Assembly (NCBI RefSeq): GCF_037975245.1
Contig: NC_092579.1
Coordinates: 29,287,666 to 29,351,665 of the forward strand
DNA length: 64,000 nt
Direction: 5' to 3'
Source: Apostichopus japonicus
Lineage: Eukaryota; Echinodermata; Holothuroidea; Aspidochirotida; Stichopodidae
The translations under genes and the position numbers were made by a program. This document shows positions 735 to 63,556 of the stretch, in pieces. How positions within the stretch are numbered: the stretch's first letter is position 1; each line of letters opens with the position of its first letter. The notes under the pieces are model-generated. The model was not told where the DNA came from. It searched no databases and saw only the letters and a list, made by a program, of their open reading frames with translations.

Positions 735-742
735 ATACTCAG
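735..742. repeat. Left target-site duplication of the U2-headed element
   Basis: ATACTCAG abuts the first base of the U2-like head and is repeated exactly at 944-951. Confidence 0.65.
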
Positions 743-943
743 ATCGCTTCTCGGCCTTTTGGCTAAGATCATGTGTAGTATATGTTCTCTTCCGAGGGGA
801 ATGGTGATGCACACCCGACGATGATCACACAGTCACAGTCCCGATGCAAGGGGACTGGGTACGTTGAGAGCGGATCAGTCGTTCGGTAGTTTGGTTTTCG
901 TTCCCAGGTTCTTTCTTGGGCGACTTTTTCTTAAAAAGTATCT
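743..943 (+). mobile_element. U2 snRNA-headed retroposon (SINE-like), 201 bp
   Basis: The first 46 bases (743-788) match the 5' end of spliceosomal U2 snRNA almost perfectly: they begin ATCGCTTCTCGGCCTTTTGG and keep the GTAGTA branch-point-pairing element. After GTTCT the sequence leaves U2 completely: there is no U2 stem II, canonical Sm site or 3' stem-loops. The body has its own hairpins, for example AGTCCC/GGGACT near 840-860, and ends with ACTTTTT-CTT-AAAAAGT. The octamer ATACTCAG lies directly before the U2 +1 base (735-742) and directly after the element (944-951), which looks like a target-site duplication. I infer reverse transcription and insertion of a chimeric RNA. SINEs with snRNA-derived heads are known in other animals; a one-off template-switch pseudogene is the alternative. 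It is not a functional U2 gene. Confidence 0.72.
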
Positions 944-951
944 ATACTCAG
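944..951. repeat. Right target-site duplication of the U2-headed element
   Basis: Second copy of ATACTCAG, directly after the tail that ends in a T-run/A-run hairpin. Confidence 0.65.
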
Positions 952-6856
<5,905 letters not shown>

Positions 6857-26935: not shown

Positions 26936-27025
26936 GTGCTCTGTCGGGGGATCGAACCGGAGACATGGAGTTTGTCTGTCTCTCTCAAGTCCAGAGCACT
27001 ACCAACTGCGCCACTAGAACTGTTG
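26936..27025 (-). repeat. tRNA-like array unit 1
   Basis: Minus strand: A-box TGGCGCAGTTGG, a CTCT..AGAG arm around GGACT, an extended variable region, and B-box GGTTCGATCCCC. Part of a tandem array of four good units with spacing of 163, 163 and 152 bp. Confidence 0.65.
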
Positions 27026-27098
27026 AGAATTAATGCTCGTTTCTAATATTTAAACTTCAGAGTCCAGAATGGAAGAAAGAAAAGAACAGAAAATCAAA

Positions 27099-27190
27099 AT
27101 GCTCTGTCTGGGAATCGAACCGGAGACATTGAGTTTGTCTGTCTCTCTCCAGTCCAGAGCACTACCAACTGCGCCACTAGAACTGTTGAG
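27099..27190 (-). repeat. tRNA-like array unit 2
   Basis: Minus strand: A-box TGGCGCAGTTGG and B-box GGTTCGATTCCC. The CTCT-GGACTGG-AGAG arm has a seven-base loop, and five of seven acceptor positions can pair (GTTCT with AGAGC). Position 33 of a true tRNA (U) is not U here. Confidence 0.65.
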
Positions 27191-27261
27191 AATTAATGCT
27201 CGTTTCTAATATTTAAACTTCAGGGTCTAGATTGGAATCAGTAAAAGAGCAAAATATCATA

Positions 27262-27340
27262 ATGCTCTGTCTGGGAATCGAACCGGGGACCATAGTCTCT
27301 GCAGTCCAGAGCACTACCAACTGCGCCACTAGAACTGTTG
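27262..27340 (-). repeat. tRNA-like array unit 3, short variable region
   Basis: Same A and B boxes as units 2 and 4, but about a dozen bases are missing from the region between the anticodon-like arm and the B-box. Confidence 0.65.
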
Positions 27341-27413
27341 AGAATTAATGCTCGTTTCTAATATTTAAACTTCAGGGTCCAGAATGGAATCAGTAAAAGA
27401 GCAAAAAATCATA

Positions 27414-27506
27414 ATGCTCTGTCTGGGAATCGAACCGGGGACCATAGAGTTTGTCTGTCTCTCTGCAGTCCAGAGCACTACCAACTGCGCCACTAGAACT
27501 GTTGAG
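27414..27506 (-). repeat. tRNA-like array unit 4
   Basis: Nearly identical to unit 2, including the GTTGAGAATT downstream context. The spacers between units contain the repeated phrase TTCTAATATTTAAACTTCAG. Confidence 0.65.
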
Positions 27507-27660
27507 AATTTATACTCGTTTTTAAAATTTAATCTTCACAACATTAGGAGGCAAATAAATAGAAAACCAAATGCATCCTCTGGTGTTGTCTCATTTTTTT
27601 CCAGTTTAATGACAATTTCATTGTACAAAACAATACTATATATGCAAAATTATACATCAT

Positions 27661-46257: not shown

Positions 46258-46662
46258 TTACTGCAATATCCCAATGTCTTGTCCAATATCGTACAGTTCA
46301 GGTGATTCATTGGAAGGGATTTTTATCTGTTGTTTATCCTTTTTGTCTCGAAAATCCAAATTTGTTGTCGATAGAAGGATTGTGTTAAGCAATGCTGATT
46401 TTGCTGTTTTCTGTACAAAGCTAGTGACACTTTCTTTATACCATAACTGTTCACAACAGCAGCACACATATTCTGGACCTACTGAAATAGAGTTGAGAAA
46501 GCCTTGTTGCAATTGTTGAATTGATGAAGTGTTACAGCTGGTTCTCTTGTTGTATTTGGATTTGATTTCATTAACTGCAAACTGTGGATCTCTTCTAGCT
46601 TGTGCCATTCGTTCTTGATTCTTTTGTTTTTCTGGGACAGTGTACGTATCATTTTTGCGAAT
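46258..46662 (-). pseudogene. Helitron Cys-rich N-terminal domain
   Basis: Encodes FLNSISVGPEYVCCCCEQLW and KESVTSFVQKTA, the region with a GP.YVC..C motif that precedes the Rep domain in animal Helitrons. It ends with IPSNESPELYDIGQDIGILQ right at the border with the helicase fragment. Confidence 0.7.
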
Positions 46663-46978
46663 AATCATAATAATATTTGCTTATTATATAGCGCTTGATA
46701 CCAGCGATAGGTCTCAAAGCGCTTTACAGACGTTATATTACCCCTAGTCAATGAAAACCTGTCCCAGAGACAATCCCTCCAGTCCGCAGCAGTTATATAC
46801 TGCGCCCAATGACAAGTTACCTGACAGGTACCCATTTAACCCCTGGGTGGACAGAGGCAAGTGAGAAAAAGCATCTTGCCCAAGGACACAACGTAATAGA
46901 CTAGGCAGGAATCAAACCAGCAATCCTTGGATCACGAGTCCGATGCCTTAGCCAATTGGCCACCACGCTCTCACAAAC
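46663..46978 (-). mobile_element. tRNA-derived SINE with L2-like tail
   Basis: The minus-strand head (46978 downward) has an A-box-like TGGTGGCCAATTGGCTAAGG, an anticodon-arm-like ATCGGACTCGTGATCC and a B-box GGTTTGATTCC. The body is followed by a tail with AAAGCGCTTTGAGACC and AAGCGCTATATAATAAGCAA, ending in (ATT)n-like repeats at 46663-46675. The tail matches the 3' ends of the L2 elements at 6.9 kb and 63.5 kb, so L2 machinery probably mobilised it. It sits inside the Helitron. Confidence 0.82.
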
Positions 46979-48184: not shown

Positions 48185-48736
48185 ATGTTTGTGACTGGCA
48201 TGTTTGGTTTGATGTTATATTTTGCTTTGATTTTCTTCTCGTCTTGTTTCGCTGTCTGTAACTTAATTTTTTTGTTCGTGGCATGACAGAATATTGTGGA
48301 CAATCTCTCCTTTTGGACAACAGTTTTTGTAGGATAGTAGTGTGCATATAGAGAGTGATTGACTGTAAATGCTGTTCTGGATTTTGGATATTTATCACAA
48401 GCACTTGATCAGAATGTGTGTTAAATTTTTGGGAATGTTTTTTATTGCAATGCTTGGAATTCAAGTACTTTTTGTATGCCTGTGAAATTCTTGTAAATAT
48501 TGTTAAGTCCTTTTTGAGTTCTTAAAATCGTTTTCTGTCAAAGTACTTGTTGAGTTGCCTAGAAATGATTTCAACAAGTGATAAGCATGTCTTTTCAACT
48601 GGGTTTTAATAACTGTCAAGTAGTGTGCGATTTTCTTTCAGAACTGTTTAAGAAATGCCTTCGAAATATATGTTTCAAAGTTTGCTTGTATTTATTATGA
48701 TTATTTGCACTATACTTTGTTCTGATTGTCAGTAGT

Positions 48737-50140
48737 TTTGAGCATTTTTCCAGGTTTTGGTGAGTATTTTATTTGGAGTATTTTCAGTGCTTTATGCTTT
48801 GTTAGTAATTTGTAGCGGTTCTTTTGCTTTTTTAGTACTTTTGATATTTTTAGCTCTTTTCACTGCTTTTCAGCAATTTTTAGCTCTTTTCAGCAATTCT
48901 TATGTTCTTCAGTACTTTGCAGCACTTTTTATGCATTAATTTTGAGCAGTTTTCCGGGTTTTGTGAGTATTTTATTTGGAGTATTTTCAGTGTTTTATAT
49001 TATGCTTTGTTAGTAATTTGTAGCGGTTCTTTTCCTTTTTTAGTACCTTTGATATTTTTAGCTCCTTTCAGCACATTTTAGCTCTTTTCAGCAATTTCTA
49101 TATGTTCTTCAGTACTTTGCAGCACTTTTTATGCATTAATTTTGAGCAGTTTTCCGGGTTTTGTGAGTATTTTATTTGGAGTATTTTCAGTGTTTTATAT
49201 TATGCTTTGTTAGTAATTTGTAGCGGTTCTTTTCCTTTTTTAGTACCTTTGATATTTTTAGCTCCTTTCAGCACATTTTAGCTCTTTTCAGCAATTTCTA
49301 TATGTTCTTCAGTACTTTGCAGCACTTTTTATGCATTAATTTTGAGCAGTTTTCCGGGTTTTGTGAGTATTTTATTTGGAGTATTTTCAGTGTTTTATAT
49401 TATGCTTTGTTAGTAATTTGTAGCGGTTCTTTTCCTCTTTTAGTACCTTTGATATTTTTAGCTACTTTCAGCACATTTTAGCTCTTTTCAGCAATTTCTA
49501 TATGTTCTTCAGTACTTTGCAGCACTTTTTATGCATTAATTTTGAGCAGTTTTCCGGGTTTTGTGAGTATTTTATTTGGAGTATTTTCAGTGTTTTATAT
49601 TATGCTTTGTTAGTAATTTGTAGCGGTTCTTTTCCTTTTTTATTACCTTTGATATTTTTAGCTCCTTTCAGCACATTTTAGCTCTTTTCAGCAATTTCTA
49701 TATGTTCTTCAGTACTTTGCAGCACTTTTTATGCATTAATTTTGAGCAGTTTTCCGGGTTTTGTGAGTATTTTATTTGGAGTATTTTCAGTGTTTTATAT
49801 TATGCTTTGTTAGTAATTTGCAGCGGTTCTTTTCCTTTTTTAGTACCGTTGATATTTTTAGCTACTTTCAGCACATTTTAGCTCTTTTCAGCAATTTCTA
49901 TATGTTCTTCAGTACTTTGCAGCACTTTTTATGCATTAATTTTGAGCAGTTTTCCGGGTTTTGTGAGTATTTTATTTGGAGTATTTTCAGTGTTTTATAT
50001 TATGCTTTGTTAGTAATTTGTAGCGGTTCTTTTCCTCTTTTAGTACCTTTGATATTTTTAGCTCCTTTCAGCACATTTTAGCTCTTTTCAGCAATTTCTA
50101 TATGTTCTTCAGTACTTTGCAGCACTTTTTTATGCATTTA
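48737..50140. repeat. Tandem array, 200-bp period, seven units
   Basis: Units start at 48737 (diverged, 204 bp) and then at 48941, 49141, 49341, 49541, 49741 and 49941, exactly 200 bp apart and differing at only a few bases. Each unit contains TTTTGAGCAGTTTTCCGGGT, TAGCGGTTCTTTTCC and repeated AGTAC/AGCAC + T-run sub-motifs. Weak readings such as the frame at 49776 are products of the array. Confidence 0.97.
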
Positions 50141-59781: not shown

Positions 59782-61692
59782 GAAAATCTTGAACTCTCTC
59801 TCCTTACTAGTGTTAAGAAAATTCATGCAGTAACCATTAAACACACAAGAGAGTTTCTTCTTGCTGTAGAGAAATCTGTTAAGTCTTGTGTGGGCTTTCA
59901 GCCATGGAAAAGGACAATAGATGATTTAACTCCATTCAGGAGACCCACTCGCAGAGGAACAAAGGCTGGCATTAAATTCAGGAGATGCATACCAGTGCTT
60001 ATAAATAGAGATTGTGCTAAATGGAATAACAAAATCAATGAGGGTAAACAATCAGGGATAAATTTCAACAATCTAATCCAGCTACCTACCAACAATCTAA
60101 TTCAGCTACCTACAGGACTCAAAGAAACATACCATAATGATATGCAATATGAAATTCAAACTGTAATTAAACCAAGGCTTGTGAACCACGTTAGAACTAT
60201 CAAAATGCACCGCAATAATTTACATGTCATAAAAAGGGATCATAAACTTAAATTCAATAACCAGCATACCAAGCCGCTAATAGTGTTCTTACAAAATGTT
60301 CGCTCCATCAGCAATAAAGCAATATCTGTTTCTGACTTTGTTGTATCGAATGATATTGACATTTTAGCACTAACTGAAACATGGCTGGGAAATGTGACTG
60401 ACAGCTCTGTAATAGGTAACCTTGTCCCTATGGGTTATGAATTCGAGCATGTCCCCCGTTCCACCAGAAAGACTGGAGGAGGGGTTGGGTTGCTGTTTAA
60501 ATCTGGATTATCACTAAAGATTAACACCTCGACTAAGGATAATCTCTACACGCATTTTGAGCATATGGATTGCTGTATCAGCACTGGTGATTTACAATTT
60601 GCATTAAGTGTTATCTACTGACCCCCTCCCTCTTCTAAAAATGGATTCAAGAATTCTATATATTTTGATGAATGGGCACTTTATCTGGATCTGGAGTGAT
60701 ACTACTCAACTCCCCTAAAAGGGGTAAAACGAGTAGTTCTAGAAAGTATTACAGCCATGAAAGATCGTGTGACCATCGTTGGTGATTTGAACTTTCACCT
60801 GGATAACCCTAATGATGTTGATTCACAGAAGTTTTCTAGACTTTTAAATGTCCATGGTTTAAAACAACACGTCGTTGGTGCAACTCATCGTGCTGGACAT
60901 ACCCTGGATGTAGTGATAACCCGAGAACACAGTGACATACTGTATGGTTCACCATCTATTGTTGACGCATGTCTCGGTAATATGAATGGAAATTTGACTT
61001 GTGATCATTACGCTGTAAGTCTCAACATCAATACGCATAAACCAGATCACATTCGCAAAGTTACAACGTTCAGAAAGTTTCGTGATATCAATGTTCCTGA
61101 TTTTATCGATGACATCAAACATTGTAAAACCTTAATGAATGTCAATCAGTCGGTTGAGGAGCTAGTGGCTGCCTACATTAATCATTTGAGCAAGTTAGTT
61201 GATCGCCATGCACCAGAATGTACCAAGACAATTACTTTACGACCCAATACCCCATGGTACACAGACACACTCAGACATGCAAAACATGAAAGAAGAAAGG
61301 CTGAAAGAAAATGGAGGACGACTCGTCTTACTGTCCACTGGCAAATTTATAGAAACCAATGTAAAGTTGTTAATAAACTTCTAGTTCAAGAAAAACGGAA
61401 CTACTATTGCAACAAAATTGCGGAATGTGGCAGTGATCAAAGACGACTTTTCAGTCTAACCAAAGACTTAATGGGTGAACCAAATGATGCCACATTGCCA
61501 TCAAACACATGTGTTGAAAGTCTTGCTAATCAATTTGGTGAGTTCTTTATAAACAAGGTAGCAGCTATTCGTGAGGAATATGATACTTGTGATGCCACGG
61601 CCAGTGTAGACATAATGGCAGACGATAGAATTTTGGTGGTTGTCCTCTACAATCTTTCTCTCCTGCCACCAAAGAAGAGGTACGGAAGCTAA
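59782..61692 (+). pseudogene. L2 LINE ORF: N-terminal region and AP-type endonuclease
   Basis: The open frame runs back from an in-frame GTG at 59890 to about 59782 (EFLLAVEKSVKSC). Endonuclease motifs follow: VFLQNVRSISNKA, DIDILALTETWLG, STRKTGGGVGLLFKSG. The frame stops at TGA 60619 in VIY-stop-PPPSSK, where relatives have Arg, so a CGA to TGA transition is likely. After the palindrome it resumes in the same frame with TIVGDLNFHLDNP, GHTLDVVITRE, and the CDHYAVSLNI catalytic block, then an Arg/Lys linker (NTPWYTDTLRHAKHERRKAE). The enzyme nicks DNA to prime reverse transcription. Confidence 0.88.
60701..60737. repeat. 37-bp palindrome in the L2 ORF
   Basis: ACTACTC..CCCCT and its inverse AGGGG..GAGTAGT form a hairpin. 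It occupies the gap between YLDL and VLESITAMKDR, where the reading frame would otherwise continue. The frame on both sides is the same, so an insertion of about 42 bases is likely. Confidence 0.7.
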
Positions 61693-63224
61693 TTACAAGC
61701 TCCCCAACAAAGTCCTGCAACTTGGATCCTATAACTACCTGGCTATTGAAGCAATGTGTCGATGCACTCCTGCCAATTATAACCGCCATCATAAACCAAT
61801 CACTCATTGAATCAAAGGTGCCGTCTTGTTTTAAGCGTTCTATTGTTAAACCACTGCTCAAAAAGCCTGGTATGAATAAAGAAGTGTTTAAAAACTACCG
61901 ACTTGTATCAAATTTACCTTTTATATCCAAACTTTTAGAAAAAGTTGTTGCAATACGCCTTCAACATCACTTAAATGCCAATGCTTTGCATGATAATCTC
62001 CAATCTGCATATCGCCAGTACCATTCAACTGAGTCAGCTTTACTAAGAGTACATAACGATATTGCCGCAGCTCTTGACAAGAGGTCCCAAACAATGATGG
62101 TCATGTTGGACATATCGGCAGCCTTCGATCTTATTGATCATGAGATCTTATTTAATCGTCTCCAACATACTTTTGGAATTGCGTCAAACTCATTAAAATG
62201 GTTTTAGTCATATTTTAGGGACAGAATGCAATGTATACAATTGATAATGTTATATCTGATGAGAAACAGCTAAGATTTGGGGTGCCACAAGGATCTGTAC
62301 TTGGTCCTTTGATATATTGTATGTTTACCCGTCCAGTTGGAGAAATAATTCAGCGCCATAACATCAACCATCACTGTTATGCTGATGATACGCAATTGTA
62401 TTTGAATTTTGGTGCCCTTGAGTCCTGGAATGATGTATCTTTTAAGGTCCAAGCATGCCTTTCAGATATAGTCAGGTGGATGCGGGTTAATTGTTTGAAA
62501 CTTAACCAGGACAAAACTGAGTTCATTGTATTTTCACCAAAATTTCAGGGTAATGCTATTCAAGACTTGTATATAAATATGGGACCTAACACCATATTTT
62601 CAGTTCCTAAAGTAAAGAATTTAGGTGTATATCTTGATCACAATCTTACCATGGATAATCAAGTTGACTCTATCTGTAAGTCCTGTTATTGGCAGATCCG
62701 GAATATTGGCAAAATTAGAAGGTATATCTCAGATGATGCGTGTAAGACTTTAATCCATGCCCTTGTGACATCAAAACTGGATTACTGCAATGCCCTGCTA
62801 TATGGCCTGCCTCACAAGCTAACCGATCGCCTTCAGCGAGTTCAGAATTGCGCTGCACGGCTTGTAAGTCGCACTCGTAGACATGAGCATATTACACCCA
62901 TATTACGTGACTTACATTGGTTGCCGATTCATTGCAGGTTCAATTATATGTTATATACATATAAGTCACTTAATGGTTTAGCCCCTACAGTATCTACCTC
63001 TCTGAATTAATACATTAATACAAGCCTACTCGATCTCTACGCTCAGAATCCAAGTCCTTACTTACCAAACCTGTCATTAAAACTTCTACATACGGAAACA
63101 GGCGTTTCGATTACTCATCTGCGACATTATGGAACAGTTTATCGGAGGAAGCTAAGTGTGCCAAAAATATAGATGAATTTAAAAAACTAGTCAAAACCTT
63201 TCTATTTAGATCTGCATTCCATTA
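61632..63224 (+). pseudogene. L2 LINE reverse transcriptase
   Basis: RT blocks in order: SPATKEEVRKLITSSPTKSC (about 61640), FKNYRLVSNLPFISKLLEKV, MVMLDISAAFDLIDHEILF (motif A), [11 protein letters not shown] (motif B), [12 protein letters not shown] (motif C with YADD), then the thumb [14 protein letters not shown] and [13 protein letters not shown]. The TAG at about 62206 interrupts KWF-stop-SYFRDR, and a frameshift follows within 25 bases. After 63010 a further shift leads to LRSESKSLLTKPVIK and SATLWNSLSEEAKCA, then stop at 63224. Catalytic aspartates are present, but the protein cannot be made in one piece. Confidence 0.9.
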
Positions 63225-63556
63225 ATTGTGCTTTCTATACTATATATTGTCACATTATTACAACGCATTTTCCATTTTGCGTTTATAGCGTTTTTAAAAT
63301 TTAAAATTGTTCACATTTACATATATTTTAAATTTTAAGAATTTGTTTGTATAATTTTCACTTTTACATTTGCAGTTTTTATACAATTTATAGTCAGATG
63401 GTATTTAACAAATTTTCTACCCTTTTTATACCTTACATTATCGATTTATATATTTGTATATCATGATTGTTTGTATTTTACTGTAAAGCGCCTTAGAGCA
63501 ATTTCTGATTGGATAAGGCGCTATAGAAATTTTGTATAATAATAATAATAATATAG

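Follow-up and report, generated by a model that had tools for sequence, protein, structure and literature searches.

A dispersed SINE family with a U2 snRNA head in the sea cucumber Apostichopus japonicus has members at a fixed site inside U2 genes

To our knowledge, the origin of the snRNA heads of SINEs is unsettled. The crocodilian SINEU elements of Kojima (2015) are reported to be short, dispersed, and headed by sequence from U1 or U2; they were reportedly mobilized by a Tx1-clade LINE, and their families reportedly prefer a Mariner repeat. Repbase lists SINEU as a class for snRNA-headed SINEs (PMC5753468). Keno and Utopia LINEs insert in U2 genes with the downstream U2 sequence beginning at nucleotide 39, and crocodilian Utopia copies outside U2 genes keep U2-like junctions (PMC4640811). 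Drosophila R2 SIDEs are described as short nonautonomous elements in the multicopy 28S genes that join an R2 5' ribozyme to an R2 3' end, are cotranscribed, and depend on the resident LINE's machinery to move (PMC3414825). Chimeric retropseudogenes combine a small-RNA part with an unrelated 3' part and arise by separate events (PMC2104539).

The element described here, from the sea cucumber Apostichopus japonicus, is about 195 nt long and noncoding and carries the 5' part of U2 along, whereas Keno and Utopia, which use the same U2 site, are autonomous LINEs. Its head begins at +1 (host U2 nucleotides 1-45), as SINEU heads reportedly do, but in contrast to crocodilian SINEU the sea cucumber family has members inside U2 genes at a fixed site. 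With the R2 SIDEs it has in common that it is short and resides in a multicopy RNA gene. It differs from them in that Rfam finds no ribozyme in the copy studied, the 5' sequence of the target is kept, and the spread is genome-wide; the cotranscription known for SIDEs would be shared (PMC3414825). It resembles the chimeric retropseudogenes in its two-part structure (PMC2104539), but here one junction has been amplified. Among the papers listed by searches of the literature, none is on such a SINE family in an echinoderm.

The copy in question occupies positions 743-943 (plus strand) of the window, a 64-kb stretch of the host genome (C19:29287666-29351665) in which it is the only copy found. The Rfam U2 model (RF00004) matches 743-841 (+) with 52.5 bits against a gathering cutoff of 46 (E = 1.5e-7 over the window), and the high-posterior part of this alignment covers only about the first 46 bases. 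Because the copy passes this cutoff, others like it can be miscounted as U2 genes in automatic annotation. Both the model match and the comparison with the host's own U2 gene place the first base at U2 +1, where an initial annotation made from the window's sequence had put it. That annotation also counted 46 U2 bases including GTAGTA. The window copy does agree with the host gene at 45 of 46 bases, with the sole mismatch at U2 nucleotide 40, and the branch-site-pairing GTAGTA is kept; however, the boundary set from other copies gives a family head of 45 nucleotides (743-787, +). Base 788 (T) agrees with U2 nucleotide 46, but most other aligned copies have C here.

The body that follows (788-940, +) is common to family members and ends in AAAAAGTA, with the final GTA of the family closing at 940 in this copy. 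The stretch across the U2/body junction (775-804, +) corresponds to a diagnostic 30-mer, from which the window copy deviates at 3 of 30 positions. Near the 3' end, the sequence and predicted folds contain a CCCAGG..CTTGGG hairpin (903-920, +) and a terminal hairpin, ACTTTTT CTT AAAAAGT (923-939, +), that is also evident in the alignment and includes a run of five T's (925-929). The annotated contrast between the head and an unrelated, hairpin-bearing body holds for the non-U2 character of the body and for these 3' hairpins, but the fold of the whole 201-nt element is unexceptional (z = -1.34; 22 of 200 shuffles equally stable). A U2-like origin of the body, prompted by a TCCGAGG motif, was rejected: similarity to U2 from nucleotide 47 to its end is matched by 971 of 1000 shuffles (with the human U2 sequence), and the first 16, 20, 25, and 30 nt of the body score against U2 no better than 83, 254, 232, and 280 of 1000 shuffles, respectively. 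The element has 48% G+C, compared to 28-32% in its two 500-bp flanks.

An exact octamer, ATACTCAG, flanks the element at 735-742 and 944-951 (+) and has no other occurrence in the window. By itself this is modest evidence for a target-site duplication, since 274 of 9098 sampled positions (3%, a background inflated by tandem repeats in the window) repeat their upstream 8-mer 100-300 nt downstream. What settles the proposed duplication is that all eight family loci inspected, which are the best-scoring ones of a genome DNA search and include the window copy, have one: seven are exact (8-15 bp) and one is imperfect (8/10). Between the family 3' end and the downstream octamer lies TCT (941-943, +), identical to U2 nucleotides 39-41, which may either belong to the tail as additional bases or form part of an imperfect duplication that is longer than the octamer (13 bp, TATCWATACTCAG).

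The element is a member of a dispersed SINE family with a U2(1-45) head and a body of about 150 nt. In the host genome (671,581,487 bases, 35 contigs), the junction 30-mer of the window's subfamily has 1271 matches with up to three mismatches (636 and 635 on the two strands) and its reversed control has none on either strand; the window element is thus not a lone pseudogene, and the possibility that its junction is unique, on which the proposal of a U2-headed retroposon family hinged, is excluded. A 30-mer from the middle of the body has 1974 matches (control 0). The junction of a second, short-loop subfamily has 229, at least 100 of them exact (control 0), and among the 100 exact matches listed one falls in the U2 gene array. 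A whole-genome DNA search, with the best 40 of 2701 candidates scored, gives 42 matches of 84-100% identity that all span the junction, in both orientations and on many contigs. Twenty sampled 10-kb stretches (nhmmer, E up to 1) yield two matches, one with head and body (L014) and one with body only (L006). The many dispersed copies of one structure and their target-site duplications are the properties expected of a SINE. Viral contigs (two exact patterns) and collections of phages and plasmids have no match to the element. The A. japonicus assembly paper gives 159,644 bp of SINEs (PMC10344927). This is less than 1974 copies of about 195 nt would add up to, so that, provided the assembly is the same, a large part of the family probably went unclassified there.

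Some copies occur in clusters. Head-to-tail SINE clusters are found at L039 on contig C5, at C6:7149372-7149774, and at C2:21947718-21948849, and at nine places in the genome the end of one SINE is fused to the next SINE with the sequence AAAAAGTA|TCTGTTCC. These SINE-SINE joints look like the result of a second hit on the U2 target, either in the head or at the 3' joint. At C5:11042412-11066015, eight junction matches in one orientation are spaced 2.7-4.1 kb apart, which is probably a larger repeat unit that carries the SINE.

The host U2 genes detected with RF00004 form a 645-bp tandem array on contig C16, with four more genes on C15 (best 46 of 40,968 candidates scored). Nucleotide 30 of host U2 is a T, which the SINE head shares and where human U2 has A, and one SINE copy (L026) is identical to host U2 over nucleotides 1-45; the head therefore derives from the host's own U2. 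A predicted joint in which the SINE 3' end is fused to U2 nucleotide 39 (GTA|TCTG) has nine exact genome matches as a 19-mer, six of them in the U2 array. With up to two mismatches there are 78, compared to 28 for the reversed-pattern control. A second pattern finds 13 interrupted U2 3' halves, all on C16, of which six follow a SINE and seven a LINE of the type at L038; because this pattern passes over any end that has A at -15 or G at -8, the count does not include a second LINE type (L033, L040, L041, and L042).

Six resident SINE copies were read within U2 genes, one each at L040, L041, and L042 and three at L043. The L042 copy and two of those at L043 have the order promoter, U2 1-42 or 1-45, body, U2 39-193; since U2 35-38 is AGTA, like the end of the SINE, the corresponding BLAST pieces begin at U2 35. 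The third L043 copy is 5' truncated and preceded by U2 1-53, so that U2 39-53 (15 bp) is duplicated. A truncated copy at L041 is followed by a second joined via TCTGTTC, and the truncated copy at L040 lies behind a LINE end. The 3' joint is constant at U2 nucleotide 39 in all six while the 5' joints vary, a combination that is a mark of target-primed reverse transcription. With their different 5' joints, including truncations and the 15-bp U2 duplication, the resident copies look like separate insertions. Family members have thus inserted in U2 genes at one fixed site, which lies within one base of the site used by an APE-type LINE.

For five SINE-bearing U2 genes, the 400 bp upstream agree with those of an intact gene at 399-400 positions, and the 80 bp downstream of five resident copies are the same as in three intact units (80 of 80). 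Downstream of three SINE-bearing genes, only 42 of 80 positions agree with the unit at L033; given the perfect agreement with the three other intact units, L033 itself differs there. In comparison, the 200 bp upstream of eight dispersed copies have 43-60 of 200 ungapped matches to the U2 promoter, i.e., no resemblance. Identity between the resident copies and the two L039 copies in the alignment, which lie outside the array, is 97-99%. All six belong to the short-loop subfamily rather than to that of the window copy, and the tail mark of the latter, GGGCGACTTTTTC, is absent from all four loci that hold them (L040-L043). The U2 array could be partly misassembled.

The 3' ends of dispersed copies may bear a trace of the U2 target. 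From 100 listed of 230 exact tails with flank, collapsing near-identical ones leaves 85 distinct flanks, and these favor T, C, and T at positions +1 to +3 (53, 35, and 42 of 85; sample frequencies 0.30, 0.20, and 0.30). The flank pattern excludes G at +13, and at least one of the 85 flanks is the start of a neighboring SINE. Of 2000 random samples from the genome, none is as similar to TCTGTTC as these flanks are, whichever of four lengths is compared. This bias could be either residual target choice or a few U2 bases copied from read-through RNA, and the TCT between the GTA and the octamer of the window copy allows both readings.

L1-like APE LINEs occupy the same U2 site as the SINE. The LINE at L038 interrupts the array between U2 1-30 and U2 38-193, which is the 38/39 site within one base since the downstream U2 begins at nucleotide 38. 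It has open frames of 410 and 1157 amino acids, the second of which contains Exo_endo_phos (EEP endonuclease) and RVT_1 domains and has L1 ORF2p as its best PDB relative. The APE endonuclease, the reverse transcriptase, and the 38/39 site are those of a Keno-type LINE. A protein search with it (best 40 of 4586 candidates scored) gives six matches at 99-100% identity that are all in the U2 array, five full-length and one lacking the first 140 residues. Among the 40 scored there is also one 82% relict near the array on C16, and 33 belong to families elsewhere that are 39-41% identical. Many intact LINEs with about 40% protein identity occur outside the array on C17, C11, C16, and C7, mostly on C17 among the 40 scored. 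Another LINE type is visible at L041 near position 2119 of the reverse complement, where U2 1-25 is followed by TTTTATGCAGCG and an open frame.

The initial annotation proposed a comparison of the SINE body and tail with LINE 3' ends. A guess that the tail is the 3' end of the L038 LINE proved wrong, as the last 860 nt of this LINE align with it at a score of 16, below the shuffle mean of 18.3 and equaled or exceeded by 286 of 300 shuffles. For this one LINE, those 860 nt show no similarity that would point to an origin of the SINE from LINE sequence in the manner of SIDEs. The second LINE type (L033, L040, L041, and L042) shares with the SINE only a short A-rich AAAGTA|TCTG end, and the full SINE tail is in none of the LINE ends read within the array.

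We consider it probable that this SINE targets U2 genes, that its head represents the part of the target upstream of the insertion site, and that its transcripts, made from the U2 promoter, are moved by Keno-like LINEs. The presence of family members inside U2 genes suggests that the promoter of the invaded gene is borrowed, and we infer promoter use, the partner LINE, and the direction of flow from sequence comparisons. For the SINE itself, we lean slightly toward a promoterless element whose master copies sit in U2 genes, use the U2 promoter, and take the upstream half of the target as head. A resident copy would be transcribed from the untouched U2 promoter into an RNA that starts at U2 +1 and carries U2 1-45 and the body. 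A U2-targeting Keno-like LINE could then reverse-transcribe this RNA from the 3' end of the body, and new insertions would return to U2 genes or, where specificity is relaxed, enter other sites that keep the TCT preference. If the head comes from the transcript of a resident copy, then it would represent the SINE's own target upstream of the insertion point and not an internal Pol III promoter. The end of the head at nucleotide 45 is where a 7-bp duplication made on insertion at U2 38/39 would leave it, and the promoter is kept upstream of five resident copies while the eight dispersed copies compared are without it. Some observations count against this reading. The window's subfamily is the commoner one (1271 versus 229 junctions), yet it is unseen among the six residents read, although older resident copies may have been lost through array turnover. 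Read-through into the U2 3' half would be expected, yet dispersed copies end at or near AAAAAGTA. At L024 and L025 the head is separated from the 5' duplication by additional bases. Finally, the LINE ends read in the array lack the full SINE tail.

The same absence of the commoner subfamily from the U2 genes read would be natural if the head had been gained once by template switching from body RNA to U2 RNA, with the insertions in U2 genes being secondary, LINE-driven visits and not the source of copies. Such jumps to snRNA are documented, to U6 in chimeras (PMC2104539) and to U12 at R2 5' ends (PMC3414825). We nevertheless regard this origin as unlikely, because promoter-intact resident copies exist and because the head ends just 3' of the fixed 38/39 insertion point, as a 7-bp duplication leaves it. 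The family might instead be an ordinary SINE with an internal promoter in its head or body that is mobilized by any LINE and has the U2 head as a passenger. However, the best Pol III box scores of the window copy are 9/12 (A) and 8/11 (B), neither of which is convincing, and TTTTT, a Pol III stop, occurs near the 3' end in 11 of 13 aligned copies, with TTTT runs also inside the element. U2 genes, moreover, use an external promoter. We regard this alternative as improbable, even though the family's two thousand or more copies, approximately, imply an efficient source and Pol III promoter function is the usual role of SINE heads (PMC7245038).

Assembly error or gene conversion as the cause of the SINE copies in the array has in its favor that a 645-bp tandem repeat is hard to assemble. 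This explanation is very improbable, since the varied 5' junctions and truncations, together with one constant 3' junction at a LINE site, look like the products of target-primed reverse transcription. A single chimeric processed pseudogene would account for the anatomy of one copy, but the 1271 shared junctions against a control of zero refute it, and its probability is negligible.

The occurrence of one family both inside U2 genes and dispersed provides a concrete route by which an insertion into an snRNA gene would create a headed transcript. If this route is real, then the SINE relies on a Pol II snRNA promoter rather than on Pol III. It would also offer a general account of how snRNA heads are gained, as target-derived heads, and of how target-specific elements leak out as dispersed SINEs. 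A U2 head could additionally let the cDNA rejoin a U2 gene seamlessly.

The window contains several other repeats. A tRNA-headed SINE at 46600-46969 (-) has a central domain of the CCTTGGGCAAG type and ends 3' in GTAAAGCGCTTTGAG..GCGCTATATAA. The last 60 nt of the U2-headed SINE were compared with this element (CTTGGGC..CTTTTTCT) under three scorings, in which 16, 9, and 34 of 500 shuffles equal or exceed the observed similarity; the whole body gives 63, 105, and 139 of 500. Several tests were made, and a kinship of the two SINEs is not relied on. A tail match at 6428-6476 is taken as chance, since 2 of 60 shuffles of the last 60 nt and 7 of 60 of the body do equally well. At 59782-63555 (+) there is a non-LTR retrotransposon with reverse transcriptase and below-cutoff endonuclease domains in several frames and an (ATA)n end. 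It was rejected on comparison as the donor of the U2-headed SINE's 3' end; by eye, its own 3' end resembles that of the tRNA-headed SINE. ARAGORN predicts no tRNA in the window and Rfam gives one tRNA match. A tandem repeat of about 163 bp at 26937-27538 resembles, on its minus strand, a tRNA gene and includes a GGTTCGATTCCC box, and a 200-bp satellite at 48736-50138 has seven copies with 96% matches.
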